Assembly: GCA_023957995.1 (NCBI GenBank)
Contig: JAMLGK010000002.1
Span: 186,001-250,000, forward strand
Direction: 5' to 3'
Origin: Microthrixaceae bacterium
GTDB lineage: Bacteria > Actinomycetota > Acidimicrobiia > Acidimicrobiales > Microtrichaceae
DNA length: 64,000 bases
Made by a program: the position numbers and the translations under genes. Below are positions 7,959 through 57,934 of the stretch, one piece after another; position 1 is the stretch's first letter, and each line of letters opens with the position of its first letter. The notes beneath the pieces were generated by a model. That model saw nothing but the letters and a program-made list of their open reading frames with translations, searched no databases and was not told the DNA's origin.

Positions 7959-8055
7959 GGAGGTGGACGAGTGCCTGGTGGGCTCCCCGGTCTTCAAAAC
8001 CGTGCGGCATCCGGTGTTCGGGTGCGGGGGGTTCGATTCCCTCCTGCCTCCGCCA
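7959..8055 (+). tRNA. selC: tRNA-Sec (anticodon UCA)
   Basis: A 97-nt selenocysteine tRNA. An 8-bp acceptor stem (GGAGGTGG with CTGCCTCC, two wobble pairs), the loop CTTCAAA with anticodon TCA at 7994-7996, a long variable arm with a 6-bp stem, a T-loop TTCGATT, discriminator G and encoded CCA are all visible. The extended acceptor stem and long variable arm are hallmarks of tRNA-Sec. It decodes UGA when delivered by SelB. It stands about 90 bases upstream of selD and heads the selDAB genes. Confidence 0.97.
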
Positions 8056-10747: not shown

Positions 10748-12709
10748 GTGATCCTCGGCACCGCCGGGCACGTGGACCACGGGAAGTCCACCCTGGTGCG
10801 GCTGCTCAGCGGAACGGACCCCGACCGCTGGGAGGAGGAGCAGCGGCGTGGGCTGACCATCGGTCTGGGGTACGGATTCATCGATCTTCCGGGGGTGGGT
10901 TCCGCGGCGATCGTCGATGTTCCCGGGCACAACAGGTTCCTGCCGGCCATGTTGCAGGGGGCCCACGGCGTCGACATCACCCTCCTGGCGGTGGCAGCGC
11001 ACGAGGGGTGGATGCCCCAGACAGCGGAGCACGTGGCGATCCTCGATGCTCTCGGCACGAGGAGCGGCGTGGTGGTCCTCACGCACGCCGATCGCGTCTC
11101 CGATGCTGATCTGGTGGCGCTCGTGGGTGACCTGCAGGAGAGGCTCGAGGGCACCTTCCTGGCTGCTGCGGTGTCCGACCCGAGCGAGGTGGTGAGGGTG
11201 GACGGGACCAACGGATCGGGGATGGTGGAGCTCCGCCACCGCCTCGGCTGCGTCGCCTCCGAGGTGGCAACGGGTCCCGCCCATGCAGGTTGGATGGTCG
11301 GATCCGGACGACCGAGGCTCTGGGTCGACAGGTCCTTCCTGCTGGGTGGGGTCGGTCGTGTCTGCACCGGCACCCTCACGGGAGGCTCCCTCGCCGTCGG
11401 TGACCGCATCGAGGTGGTTCGCTCCCGCTCACGCGGCGGTCCGTCGACCTCCGCCACCCGGGTGGACTCGATCCAGGTGCACGGGGACGAAGCGGATGTG
11501 GCCCATTCGGGCACGCGCGTCGGACTGCGTCTTGCTTCCTCCCGGATCGTCCCTGAGGTGGGCGATGCGTTGGTGCACCGGTCGCAGTGGGGTGGCGGTC
11601 GTCATCTGCACGCGGCGCTCCGACCATTCCAGCAGGGATCCAGCGGGCCGGTCCGGGAGCTGAACCAGCGACGTGGCTACGACCTGGTGGTAGGCACGGC
11701 TCGCTGGCCCGTGGAGCTGCGACGTTCGCCCAGGGTGCCGGGCCCGCTGGTCGTTGAGGGCTCGGAGGAGCGATGGTCACCGGTGCGCCTGCACAGCGCC
11801 CATGAGATCGGCCCGGTGGCGCCGGGGGACCGTTTCGTGCTCATCGACAGCTCGACCGCCCGAGCGGTCGCCGGCGGGGTCCTGTTGGCGGTGCACGACA
11901 CCGTGGTCCGACTCGGTGCCGACGAGCTCGGAACGCGACTGGGTGCGGTGCTATCGGCAGATACAGCGGCACTGACAGACGCTCTGCTGGCCGAGCGGCG
12001 CGGCACCGCGCCAGAGGCGGTGATCGTGACCGAGGTCGGGTCGATCGCGGATGGCATCCCGACCGACGGACGACATGCATTCCACCCGGAGCTGTTGACC
12101 GATCTGCGTTCTGCGCTGTTGGGCGAGATGGCCGCACCGAACGGGTTCGGGGGGATTCGCGTCGGGACGGATCCGGCACGTCGTCGCGTCGTGGCCGACC
12201 TGGTCGCACAGGGCCGGGTGGTGGTCTCCGACGGCCTCGTCAGAGTGTCGGGAGGCGAGGACCCCAGCGACCGCATCGAGGTTCTCGCCGGTGGTCGACT
12301 GTGGCGTCGGGCGGAGCTCATGGGGGTCCTGCGCCAGGCCGGGCTGCCCGAGGAGACCTTGGCGTCGGCCACCAGGAGCGGGAGCCTGGTCTGTGTGTCG
12401 CGATCGAACACCCGGGGAGGTGCCGGAGACTCGGGTAGGGGGTCGGCGAGACGCCCGGGTGCCACCGAGCGACTCGTCGGTCGGGCGACGATGGATCGTT
12501 TCGCACAGTTGGTGGCCGACCGTCTGGCCGAGTCCGCGGCGACATTGGCGGAGCTACGTGACGCGCTCGGTCTCTCGCGCAGTGATTCGCTGGCGGTGCT
12601 CGAACACCTCGACCGCACCGGTGTCACGTTGCGAAACGGGGAGGTCCGGACAGCGGGTCCGAACGCGCCGAAGCCACGGCCTCGGGCCCGTCGTCCGGGA
12701 ACCGGTTGA
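10748..12709 (+). CDS. selB: Selenocysteine-specific translation elongation factor
   Basis: GTPase that delivers Sec-tRNA to UGA codons bearing a SECIS element. The P-loop GHVDHGKST is at residues 7-15, followed by the RRGLTIGLGY switch segment, DVPGHNRFLPAML, EF-Tu-like beta-barrel domains and a C-terminal winged-helix region that would read the SECIS hairpin. It has 653 residues and a GTG start about 50 bases after selA. Together with selC, selD and selA it completes the bacterial Sec machinery. The C-terminal end is Arg/Pro-rich and stops shortly before a 14-bp tandem repeat. Confidence 0.96.
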   Translation: MILGTAGHVDHGKSTLVRLLSGTDPDRWEEEQRRGLTIGLGYGFIDLPGVGSAAIVDVPGHNRFLPAMLQGAHGVDITLLAVAAHEGWMPQTAEHVAILDALGTRSGVVVLTHADRVSDADLVALVGDLQERLEGTFLAAAVSDPSEVVRVDGTNGSGMVELRHRLGCVASEVATGPAHAGWMVGSGRPRLWVDRSFLLGGVGRVCTGTLTGGSLAVGDRIEVVRSRSRGGPSTSATRVDSIQVHGDEADVAHSGTRVGLRLASSRIVPEVGDALVHRSQWGGGRHLHAALRPFQQGSSGPVRELNQRRGYDLVVGTARWPVELRRSPRVPGPLVVEGSEERWSPVRLHSAHEIGPVAPGDRFVLIDSSTARAVAGGVLLAVHDTVVRLGADELGTRLGAVLSADTAALTDALLAERRGTAPEAVIVTEVGSIADGIPTDGRHAFHPELLTDLRSALLGEMAAPNGFGGIRVGTDPARRRVVADLVAQGRVVVSDGLVRVSGGEDPSDRIEVLAGGRLWRRAELMGVLRQAGLPEETLASATRSGSLVCVSRSNTRGGAGDSGRGSARRPGATERLVGRATMDRFAQLVADRLAESAATLAELRDALGLSRSDSLAVLEHLDRTGVTLRNGEVRTAGPNAPKPRPRARRPGTG

Positions 12710-16741: not shown

Positions 16742-17241
16742 CGTTGCCGCCGAAGGTCGGCCCGGATCGTGCGCAGGTCGGCTCCCGTGCTGAGCAGCTC
16801 TGCCAGCATCACTGCTGCGAGTAGTGCCAGTGCCACCGCGAGGACGCGCTCGTTGGGGTCGGGTCGGAACCAGGTGAGCCCGGACGACGCAGCGGCGGCG
16901 CCCGCAACAGCGCTCGCAGCGAAGGCCACGTTCACGACCAGGTGGGTGATGCCGGGTTTCACGGGTTCCACTCCGAAACATCCACAGTCCGGCTCGCGAC
17001 GGAGGATCGCCACGGACAACGAAGCCGCGAGGAGGCAGTACATCGCCGCCATCGCCACCAGCGCCGCGGTTTCCGGCGCGACCAACACCCAGGCGCCGAC
17101 ACCGATCTCGAGCACACCGAGTGGACGAGCCATCCCGGAGGGGATGAAGGGCACGCTGACCGCACCGGAGGTCTTGGGGATTCCCGCCACCACGAGCAGG
17201 GCAGCGCCGACGGCCGACGCGATCCAGATCACCGAGGTCAT
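16738..17241 (-). CDS. MauE/DoxX-family membrane protein
   Basis: A 167-residue membrane protein with four hydrophobic helices and the MauE signature DCGCFG around residue 85. MauE is a membrane partner of MauD in making the methylamine dehydrogenase light chain stable, probably through disulfide formation. The gene is first of the main operon. Its ATG overlaps the stop of a 10-codon upstream ORF (ATGA) and its stop overlaps the light-chain-like start (ATGA). Related CGCFG proteins also occur outside methylamine metabolism, so the role here is inferred from its neighbours. Confidence 0.85.
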   Translation of the reverse strand: MTSVIWIASAVGAALLVVAGIPKTSGAVSVPFIPSGMARPLGVLEIGVGAWVLVAPETAALVAMAAMYCLLAASLSVAILRREPDCGCFGVEPVKPGITHLVVNVAFAASAVAGAAAASSGLTWFRPDPNERVLAVALALLAAVMLAELLSTGADLRTIRADLRRQR

Positions 17242-17270
17242 CTTGTGGTACCTCTTGCCCCGTCCCCCAT
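17238..17270 (-). CDS. Leaderless 10-codon upstream ORF
   Basis: ATG at 17270 opens MGDGARGTTR followed by TGA, which overlaps the mauE-like ATG as ATGA. A TAGCGT box ends seven bases before this ATG, so the transcript probably starts at or next to it. The arrangement implies leaderless translation of a short peptide coupled to mauE-like translation. Confidence 0.5.
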   Translation of the reverse strand: MGDGARGTTR

Positions 17271-17277
17271 GGGGACG

Positions 17278-17306
17278 ACGCTACACGCGGTGCCTCACCT
17301 GGTCAC
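17278..17306 (-). promoter_or_regulatory. Promoter of the mau-like operon
   Basis: On the minus strand GTGACC (17301-17306), a 17-base spacer and TAGCGT (17278-17283), followed by seven bases and the ATG of the 10-codon ORF. The -35 overlaps the stop codon of the upstream prpD-like gene, so the two operons on the same strand abut. Confidence 0.55.
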
Positions 17307-18742
17307 GGGACGAGGTCCCGCAGCGGATCCATCAACGGAGCGAGGTCGCGGAGCTCTTCCAGCACGGCAACCGTCGAGATCAGCGAGTCGCGGGCCGCTG
17401 GTGCGAGGAGTCCTGCGGTGTTGTCGGAGAACTTCGTGCACAGTTCCTCGGTGGACAGGGGCCGGCGCGCCCCGCCGCGGTTGGCCATCACCGCGGCGCG
17501 GAGTTCCTCACCCGAGGTCGTGGTGACCGTGAGCACGGCTGGGAACTGATGTGGATACACGGCGTCGCAGCTCTCGTCGGGGCCGACGGTGATCCTCGAC
17601 ATCAGCGCCATCAGATCTGGATCATGCACCCGGGCATCGTCGAAGTCCCCGAGGCCGAGCCCGAGGCCGTCGCCGCCGGTCAGGGCCGCTGCCACGGCGA
17701 AGGGTCCGGAGAACTGCGCCTGGTATCCGGTCTCCGGTCGCTGCTTGGCCGCCAGCGGCTCACCGATGGTGCGAACGGTGGCCGAGGCCACTCCGAGGTG
17801 CGCGGACCGGACCTCCGCAGGCACCAGGCCCGCTTCGCGGAGCTGGATGGCCGCGTCGACCGCGGTGTGGGTGTAGTGGTTCGCCGGATACGGCTTGAAG
17901 AAGATGTCGGCGACGCACCACTCGTTGGTGCCGGGGTCGTCGTCGAATCCGGCTAGCACCTCCTGTGGGCGGGCCTGTTCACCCAGGAAGGCCTCGAACA
18001 GACCGAACCTCCCCTCGAACACGGTGGGAGGTCCACTCAATCCCCGAGCGACGAGCTCCGAGGCGGTGATGCCGGCATGCGCGGCCCAGCCACAGTGGAT
18101 CCGCTTGACCGTGCCCCCCGTGCGGTTCGCCTCGATGATTCCCGACGACATCGACGCTGCCACACCCATGGCATCCGCGATTCCGGCCGCGTCGAGTCCC
18201 GCGAGCTTGGCCGCCGCGGCTGCCGAGCCGACAGCGCCGCAGATCGCCGTAGCGTGCTGGCCCCTGTCGAACCACACGTTCTGGCGTCGCTCGCCGTCGT
18301 AGCCGGCCATGCCGATGCGAACCGTGACCTCGAGGCCGACCGCGACCGCCGCGACCAGTTCCGCTCCGCTGCGCCCGTGGGCCTCCGCGGCAGCGAGCGC
18401 CGAGGGAACCACCGACGCGGAGGGGTGCAGGATCGAGGGCAGGTGGGTGTCGTCGTAGTCGAGGCTGTGTGCCAGCGTGCCGTTGAGCAGCGCGGCCGAG
18501 GACGCGGGCAGCCTCACCCCCGCTCCGATGGCGCTCGACTGCGGGCGACCTCCCTGGTCGGTCACGTGATCGCGGACAGCGTGAGAAGTGTCCAGCTCCG
18601 TGGCGCGCACGCAGATCCCGAGCACGTCCAGGATCCGCTCGGGCACCGATGCGCGATGGCGTTCGGGGAGGTTCTCGGCGTCGGTGGCGAAGGCGAGCGA
18701 GGCGAGGTGTTGGGCGATGGTCTGCCCGGCATCCTCGGTCAC
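17303..18742 (-). CDS. MmgE/PrpD family protein (2-methylcitrate-dehydratase-like)
   Basis: A 479-residue cytoplasmic protein of the MmgE/PrpD fold, with conserved SLDYDDTH, a central KRIHCGWAAHAG segment and GYQAQFSGPFAVA. Members dehydrate 2-methylcitrate or cis-aconitate-like acids or act on other hydroxy acids. This one sits with a cyclase and a CoA transferase, not with methylcitrate synthase, so a different catabolic substrate is likely. The GTG at 18742 overlaps the cyclase stop as GTGA, which fixes the start although the frame stays open upstream. Confidence 0.85.
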   Translation of the reverse strand: MTEDAGQTIAQHLASLAFATDAENLPERHRASVPERILDVLGICVRATELDTSHAVRDHVTDQGGRPQSSAIGAGVRLPASSAALLNGTLAHSLDYDDTHLPSILHPSASVVPSALAAAEAHGRSGAELVAAVAVGLEVTVRIGMAGYDGERRQNVWFDRGQHATAICGAVGSAAAAAKLAGLDAAGIADAMGVAASMSSGIIEANRTGGTVKRIHCGWAAHAGITASELVARGLSGPPTVFEGRFGLFEAFLGEQARPQEVLAGFDDDPGTNEWCVADIFFKPYPANHYTHTAVDAAIQLREAGLVPAEVRSAHLGVASATVRTIGEPLAAKQRPETGYQAQFSGPFAVAAALTGGDGLGLGLGDFDDARVHDPDLMALMSRITVGPDESCDAVYPHQFPAVLTVTTTSGEELRAAVMANRGGARRPLSTEELCTKFSDNTAGLLAPAARDSLISTVAVLEELRDLAPLMDPLRDLVP

Positions 18743-56719: not shown

Positions 56720-56803
56720 GTGCGTCCTGCCCGGAATGTGGATCTAGTTTGCGACAATGGTTCGTACCCCCACTCTTCCACTCACGAGCACCGGTGTGTG
56801 CCC

Positions 56804-57934
56804 ATGAGGACCGTCTACACCGACGGTGCATGCAGCGGGAACCCGGGGCCCGGCGGCTGGGCCTGGGTGGAGGTCGACGGGGCCTGGAGAACCGGGTTCG
56901 AGGCCGACAGCACCAACCAGCGAATGGAGGTGGCCGCGGTGATCTCCGCGGTCGAGACCTTCGACGGTCCGTTGCGGATCTTCTCGGATTCGACCTACGT
57001 CGTGAACTGCTGGAAGGACCGCTGGTGGGCCGGCTGGTTGAAGCGTGGATGGAAGAACTCACAGCGCAAGCCGGTGGCCAACCGAGACCTCTGGGAGCGG
57101 TTGGTGCCGCACTTCAGGGATCGGACCGACCTCGAACTCGTCTGGGTCAAGGGTCACTCCGGTGACCGCTGGAACGACATCGCCGACCGTCTTGCCGTAG
57201 CAGCGGTCCAGAACCGCCGGGGCTCCTCTGGCTCGGGTCCGCCAACCGAGGATGACCTGGGAGACCCCGACCTGACCACCGCGGGTGCTGCCCGCGCCGC
57301 GAAGACCCGAACCAAGGGGTCCGACGGGCCCACCCCTGCTACCGATTCCGATACCGATACCGATACCGATACCGATACCGGACCCGCCCCAGGACCCGGA
57401 GCCGGTGGGCGTTCTGCGATCGCACGAGGACGTGACGGTCGTGTGCCGGAGGGGTTCCTGGTGGCGGTCACGGGAGTGGGCTCCGGCGCGAACGACTCAG
57501 CGGGTGTCGAGGGACGACTCGACGAGCTGACCCGGGTGCTCGGCGCCTGGGCGGAACTCCACCGGGATGCGCTGATCCTCACGGGGCTGCGCGGTGGCGC
57601 CGAGTCCCTCGCTGCTTCGGCGGCAACGGCGGCCCAGGTGCCCTATGTGGTGGTGCTGCCGTATCCGGATCCGACGGTGGCCTGGCCGAGAGCGGAACGC
57701 GAGCGGTTCGAGAGCCAGTGCCGGGATGCGGCATCGGTGGTGACCCTCGAGAGATCCAGACCAGGAGATGCCGACGGCCGTCTGAAGGCGCTGGCGCGTA
57801 GGGATGGCTGGCTGCGCTCCGCTGCCGACATGGCGGTGCTGTTGGCGGACCGGAGCGATCCCGAGGCCGAGTCGGGTATCCACCAGTGGACACGGGCCTT
57901 CGGTGACGACCTCTGGTTGGTGGAGCTTCCGTGA
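56804..57934 (+). CDS. rnhA: RNase HI fused to a SLOG/YpsA-like domain
   Basis: A 376-residue fusion. Residues 1-140 are a complete RNase HI with catalytic D7 (YTDGACSGNPGPGGWAW), E42, D62 and H118/D128, which removes RNA from RNA-DNA hybrids. Residues about 140-215 are a linker ending in a run of Asp-Thr dipeptides encoded by a 6-bp repeat. Residues about 215-376 (VAVTGVGSG, LTGLRGGAESLAAS, VVVLPYPDPTVAWPRAERERFESQ, ARRDGWLRSAADMAVLLADR) match the SLOG superfamily near YpsA/DUF1273, nucleotide- or ligand-binding Rossmann-like domains. The partner function is unknown. The ATG at 56804 begins the RNase H fold. Confidence 0.85.
   Translation: MRTVYTDGACSGNPGPGGWAWVEVDGAWRTGFEADSTNQRMEVAAVISAVETFDGPLRIFSDSTYVVNCWKDRWWAGWLKRGWKNSQRKPVANRDLWERLVPHFRDRTDLELVWVKGHSGDRWNDIADRLAVAAVQNRRGSSGSGPPTEDDLGDPDLTTAGAARAAKTRTKGSDGPTPATDSDTDTDTDTDTGPAPGPGAGGRSAIARGRDGRVPEGFLVAVTGVGSGANDSAGVEGRLDELTRVLGAWAELHRDALILTGLRGGAESLAASAATAAQVPYVVVLPYPDPTVAWPRAERERFESQCRDAASVVTLERSRPGDADGRLKALARRDGWLRSAADMAVLLADRSDPEAESGIHQWTRAFGDDLWLVELP
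57342..57377 (+). repeat. 6-bp tandem repeat in the rnhA linker
   Basis: One CCGATT followed by five perfect CCGATA units (57342-57377). The unit keeps the frame and encodes alternating Asp and Thr; copy number can change without disrupting the protein. Confidence 0.95.

Follow-up and report, generated by a model that had tools for sequence, protein, structure and literature searches.

The mauE-like operon of a Microthrixaceae bacterium (GenBank assembly GCA_023957995.1) lies in a 64,000-nucleotide (nt) stretch of contig JAMLGK010000002.1, positions 186,001 to 250,000; this whole stretch is referred to below as the window, and its own numbering is used throughout. The sequence upstream of mauE suggests, with a probability of about 0.6, that the operon is headed by a conserved leaderless promoter followed by a mini-open reading frame (mini-ORF) of ten codons which is lineage-specific, probably translated, and passively coupled to mauE, with a weak Shine-Dalgarno (SD) sequence offering a second route to the same start codon. 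Across Acidimicrobiia the leaderless promoter is retained, while the mini-ORF is seen in this one genome only: the latter is probably a working accident rather than a dedicated switch.

How would such a site work? The operon, which encodes the MauE-like protein and a Cys-rich protein, would be served by a TANNNT promoter of its own, located in the 61 nt that separate it from an MmgE/PrpD-family gene upstream. In most relatives, to judge by the spacing of the -10 box, this promoter would start transcription at the start codon of mauE itself, giving a leaderless mRNA. Here, the predicted transcription start site (TSS) is separated from the mauE ATG by 29 nt; these open with an ATG and contain GAGGT, and the transcript would thus begin with a 10-codon frame that ends at ATGA. 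Ribosomes (70S) would load on the 5' AUG, decode the ten codons up to the TGA, terminate there, and start anew at the mauE ATG that overlaps it, while 30S subunits may additionally enter via GAGGT. The mini-ORF would then most likely have no sensing function and simply let ribosomes through to mauE.

Layout of the site and predicted leaderless starts in this genome

All elements of the site lie on the minus strand. TAGCGT (17283-17278), a TANNNT-type -10 box, is followed after seven bases by the ATG that opens the mini-ORF (17270-17238; MGDGARGTTR-stop, predicted leaderless), with the TSS predicted at or next to 17270; the mini-ORF TGA (17240-17238) overlaps the mauE ATG (17241-17239) as ATGA (17241-17238), and GTGACC (17306-17301) sits 17 bases from TAGCGT. 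The first-pass annotation had described this arrangement, from the box and its spacing to the peptide, the overlap, and GTGACC, exactly. It overlooked GAGGT (17254-17250), an SD-like sequence inside the mini-ORF and 8 nt before the mauE ATG, as well as the TGA stop (17305-17303) of the co-directional MmgE/PrpD-family gene (18742-17303), which sits inside GTGACC. Both the -10 box and the mini-ORF ATG fall within the gap between this gene and mauE. The mini-ORF ATG and mauE are in different frames, there is no in-frame start codon from the TAG of TAGCGT to 17241, and the N-termini of orthologues, judged by their length in aligned relatives, align to the start at 17241, not at 17270.

Can an ATG seven bases behind a TANNNT box be trusted as a start? 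Two gene sets bear on this question, both called with a home-made codon-usage script: the window together with a further 180 kb of its contig (204 genes, with approximate starts), and 364 kb of the genome (298 genes, same kind of calling). In the first, the spacing from TANNNT to called starts peaks at 6, 7, and 8 nt (18, 10, and 8 of the 204 genes), whereas any other distance between 0 and 29 nt is represented by 0-3 genes; the control motifs do not peak in this way. In the second, 60 of the 84 TANNNT-N6-8-RTG sites coincide with called gene starts, as compared to 11/277 for the ATNNNT control and 6/162 for TTNNNA. Because this geometry is highly specific for gene starts, the ATG at 17270 is a strong candidate for the start of both transcription and translation. 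The same sites account for 60 of the 298 called genes; about a fifth of the called genes thus look leaderless, and the genome appears to rely heavily on leaderless starts. Heavy use of TA-led (leaderless) genes has been reported for Actinobacteria (Zheng et al., 2011, PMC3160421; Cortes et al., 2013, PMC3898074). The starts described here resemble that class as reported in being box-led, and the mauE promoters show no -35 signal; unlike in TA-led genes, the box upstream of mauE precedes a mini-ORF, not the gene itself.

GTGACC, put forward by the first-pass annotation in the position of a -35 element, did not hold up: the MmgE/PrpD gene ends within it, and it is probably not a promoter element. 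Among 51 mauE promoters (one locus more than in the box count below, since no position limit was applied), a match of at least 4/6 to TTGACA at a spacing of 15-19 nt occurs in six, with 4.7 expected from shuffles; the relatives thus show no -35 signal.

The promoter and the mini-ORF in relatives

The comparison drew on two sets of loci. The Cys-rich protein was located in 30 of 99 related genomes, the window's own included; from 31 related places 30 were taken (one weak place, G087, was omitted), and 27 of these have a recognizable MauE. The second set started from 50 loci of named genomes, mostly Acidimicrobiia metagenome-assembled genomes; removal of 12 duplicates left 38, of which 33 have MauE, although several of the 33 are near-duplicates of one another and hence not independent. 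Of the 18 sequences behind the MauE profile (the window's own and those of 17 relatives), nearly all had their starts picked with the -10 box in view; to offset this bias, 12 codons on each side of the MauE start were searched and all 64 spaced motifs were treated alike.

In 19/27 and 31/33 loci, or 50/60 relatives in all, a TANNNT box is found 6-10 nt ahead of the in-frame start codon of MauE itself. The controls are far lower: ATNNNT is found in 3/27 and 3/33, TTNNNA in 2/27 and 8/33, and the best of the other 63 motifs in 12/27 and 14/33. With the box placed right before the start codon in this many relatives, mauE looks ancestrally leaderless. Of the ten relatives that lack a -10 box, six have the mauE start joined to the stop codon of a long frame upstream. 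Several relatives have a called gene of divergent orientation on the upstream side of mauE, and no MmgE homolog was found in the examined flanks of 68 related loci; the operon therefore needs a promoter of its own. Together with the -10 geometry in this genome, the like box before mauE in relatives is the sequence evidence that backs the earlier prediction of a transcript starting at the mini-ORF ATG.

The mini-ORF fares differently. The first-pass annotation had made its proposal depend on conservation of the mini-ORF in close relatives; among the relatives examined that carry the locus, none of them closely related, an out-of-frame leaderless mini-ORF is present in none (0/27 and 0/33, or 0/60), and to that extent the proposal fails by its own standard. 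The Cys-rich gene is absent from both other same-genus genomes searched, one of which is only 55% complete. At the DNA level the relatives show only short matches to the site, and a first scan of genome contigs with MauE recovered no relative.

Coupling, competing explanations, and the origin of the mini-ORF

A start codon that overlaps the stop of a short upstream frame is easily come by. Among the 204 called starts, 81 are followed by A, and 18 are preceded by an ATG mini-ORF (3-30 codons) that ends in start overlap; in the 364 kb, RTGA-coupled mini-ORFs lie behind 3/84 TANNNT-led sites, 4/277 ATNNNT sites, and 7/162 TTNNNA sites. The mini-ORF/ATGA arrangement by itself is unremarkable in this genome. 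Coupled re-initiation at mauE, which the first-pass annotation predicted, is plausible given the ATGA and the SD, but selection for coupling is unsupported because there is no enrichment behind -10 boxes. A third TANNNT-led, RTGA-coupled ORF, in addition to those before mauE and an RNase H gene (see below), has 35 codons and precedes a 330-aa gene in repetitive-looking DNA (contig 12, 283063-283170; L100). As for the second route, a 5-mer SD precedes 0/36 leaderless-type genes and 25/168 other called starts; since one also precedes 7.8% of 3000 random RTGs, GAGGT is weak evidence for SD entry at mauE.

Several observations weigh against a translated mini-ORF coupled to mauE behind its own promoter: (i) coupled mini-ORFs show no enrichment downstream of -10 boxes, so that the coupling may be fortuitous; (ii) the mauE SD could suffice alone; (iii) no close relative with the locus was found, the nearest showing 83% identity in the neighboring gene and mauE being at most 38% identical; and (iv) the MmgE/PrpD gene lies on the same strand, 61 nt away, and other nearby junctions overlap by 4 nt.

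The first two points favor an explanation which accepts the promoter and treats the mini-ORF as inert: the transcript would have an ordinary leader of ~29 nt, mauE would be translated from GAGGT, and the 5' ATG and the ATGA would be coincidental. GAGGT is well spaced, whereas leaderless-type genes here have no 5-mer SD at all, and the 18/204 starts with an overlapping mini-ORF show how readily such coincidences arise. This explanation is possible but unlikely, because SD use looks weak in this genome, given the frequency of 5-mers before random RTGs and their presence at only 25/168 non-leaderless called starts, and because one would not normally expect a 5' AUG to be inert if the rule described for Mycobacterium smegmatis applies here: an RTG at the TSS was reported to be necessary and sufficient for leaderless initiation (PMC4633059).

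Alternatively, could the mini-ORF be a fragment of mauE? If mauE was, or still is, leaderless from the ATG at 17270, it would carry a ten-residue extension that has been split by a one-base change, real or due to a sequencing error. The leader holds G5 and G4 runs, its reading in the mauE frame is basic (RGKRYHK) and would be acceptable before a membrane helix, and the same accident seems to have happened at a second leaderless, ATGA-coupled mini-ORF in the window, MVRTPTLPLTSTGVCP (56757-56807, plus strand), which precedes an RNase H gene (PF00075; 56804-57934, plus strand). Of 40 places listed for this gene, 30 loci were read, one of them the window's own. Of the 29 loci from relatives, 16 have a TANNNT-led start in the reading frame of RNase H, and none (0/29) has a mini-ORF. 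G017 and the same-genus genome G002 have a similar N-terminal stretch in frame, at -48 and -45; in the window it lies at -47, one base short as compared to G017. The stretch kept in frame in relatives and the missing base indicate that the mini-ORF at 56757 is either the frameshifted N-terminus of a leaderless RNase H or the product of a sequencing error in a C run. At mauE, however, a frameshift is improbable: all 50 leaderless-type orthologs start within 9 nt of the expected position, none has the ten-residue extension, and the ATG at 17241 is at the orthologous start. Since no relative has an N-terminal extension of MauE, extra bases inserted between the promoter and the start codon are a more likely cause than a frameshift in this case; the outcome would be the same.

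A tentative generalization, which we consider possible but would not bet on, is that leaderless genes generally give rise to coupled leaderless mini-ORFs as a by-product: an insertion or deletion close to the 5' end leaves a start codon stranded at the TSS, and an RTGA overlap, at which the ribosome can re-initiate after termination, rescues the gene. If this is true, the window would hold two rescued cases, mauE, with 29 nt between TSS and start, and RNase H, with a one-base frameshift.

A regulatory role, in which the mini-ORF would be an attenuating or stalling leader peptide of the operon, is very improbable, although in where it sits and how it is coupled it is similar to the leaderless regulatory small ORFs known from mycobacteria. 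The translational control that the first-pass annotation considered possible finds no echo in the 60 relatives, and the peptide GDGARGTTR contains no run of one codon and no Cys run. In a 50-nt fold, GAGGU can pair with ACCUC of mauE codons 2-3, but this pairing is gone when 70 or 100 nt from 17270 are folded; the leader RNA is no more stably folded than shuffled sequences (z-scores of +1.07 to -1.17), and no terminator-like site was found at 17200-17310. Regulation by the mini-ORF is thus unsupported: neither conservation nor a codon run, and neither structure nor a terminator, which would mark a regulatory leader peptide or attenuator, was found. An inverted repeat centered on the mini-ORF ATG, CGTCCCC-ATG-GGGGACG (17277-17261), was considered as a terminator of the MmgE operon and rejected; it is not unusual in the genome, where such repeats are equally common inside genes (11/204) and after stops (9/204). 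Finally, the view that mauE lacks a local promoter and owes its transcription entirely to read-through out of the MmgE/PrpD operon, as strand and spacing might suggest, is hard to credit given the -10 boxes of 50/60 relatives, the lack of MmgE in the examined flanks, and the divergent upstream genes.

The operon, related systems, and implications

The gene at the head of the operon (17241-16738, minus strand, as are its neighbors) encodes a MauE-like membrane protein of 167 aa that matches Pfam PF07291 (E 6.8e-10; 39.8 bits against a cut-off of 27), as expected of the MauE of a mau (methylamine utilization) operon. It is followed by the Cys-rich "MauA-like" protein (636 aa; 16741-14831), whose ATG overlaps the mauE TGA as ATGA, and by a 296-aa protein, possibly thioredoxin-like by a sub-threshold match (14834-13944), which overlaps the preceding gene through GTGA; four-base overlaps are thus common in this operon. 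The Cys-rich protein has no Pfam, NCBIfam, or PDB sequence match and is therefore not recognized as a MauA light chain (PF02975); PF02975 matches 0/99 genomes, but this search is uninformative because its controls were likewise without a match. The MauB heavy chain is absent among the eight proteins scanned, and no genome-wide search for it was made. The Cys-rich protein has a Tat-like N-terminus, as read from the sequence, and is kept together with MauE across Acidimicrobiia; in a seven-sequence alignment of its core (L040-L059, L105-L154), 22 Cys and three Trp residues (W35, W36, and W121 of the core) are invariant. It may represent an unrecognized MauA-like or tryptophan tryptophylquinone (TTQ)-like family, the TTQ idea being our own presumption.

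Elsewhere in the window, a tRNA-Sec (7959-8051, plus strand) lies near a gene (10748-12709, plus strand) which we take to be SelB and which, with the tRNA, presumably makes up the selenocysteine machinery. On contig 12, TAGGAT-N6-ATG at 129276 (plus strand) opens an apparently leaderless 48-codon ORF that ends in ...SIDGMCGVY, presumably a mycofactocin precursor (MftA).

The mini-ORF upstream of mauE is a predicted addition to an already known class. In mycobacteria, Shell et al. (2015, PMC4633059) described "coupled" leaderless small ORFs that start with an RTG at the TSS and whose TGA overlaps the next start as RTGA. With ten codons, it falls within the 5-50 codons of that class, its TGA overlaps a mauE start which is backed by orthologs, it is unannotated, and, as in the published class, its peptide need not be conserved. 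Unlike the mycobacterial examples, it is predicted only, comes from an Acidimicrobiia genome, and keeps neither linkage nor peptide in the relatives examined; and while the class is reported to be overrepresented in M. tuberculosis (PMC4633059), this is not so in the 364 kb analyzed here. In combining a 5'-terminal AUG with an SD-led gene, and thus two modes of ribosome entry, the site also resembles the 5'-uAUG mRNAs of Escherichia coli (Beck et al., 2016, PMC4965119); that set, as described, is defined without an ATGA overlap and is backed by reporters and toeprints, whereas the present case is predicted from sequence. A leaderless short ORF likewise heads the operons controlled by Cys-codon attenuator ORFs of mycobacteria (Canestrari et al., 2020, cited in PMC9031893), but here there is no run of Cys or other codons and no conservation.

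What does this site mean beyond one operon? For the genome itself, start-codon annotation should reckon with leaderless-looking starts in about a fifth of the genes. More broadly, a head-of-operon site at which what is conserved, the promoter, can be separated from what is not, the mini-ORF, argues against assuming a regulatory role for each and every leaderless small ORF and suggests a simple route for the origin of such ORFs. If they do arise as by-products of leaderless genes, the mycobacterial "coupled" class would consist in part of rescued indels rather than evolved regulators.
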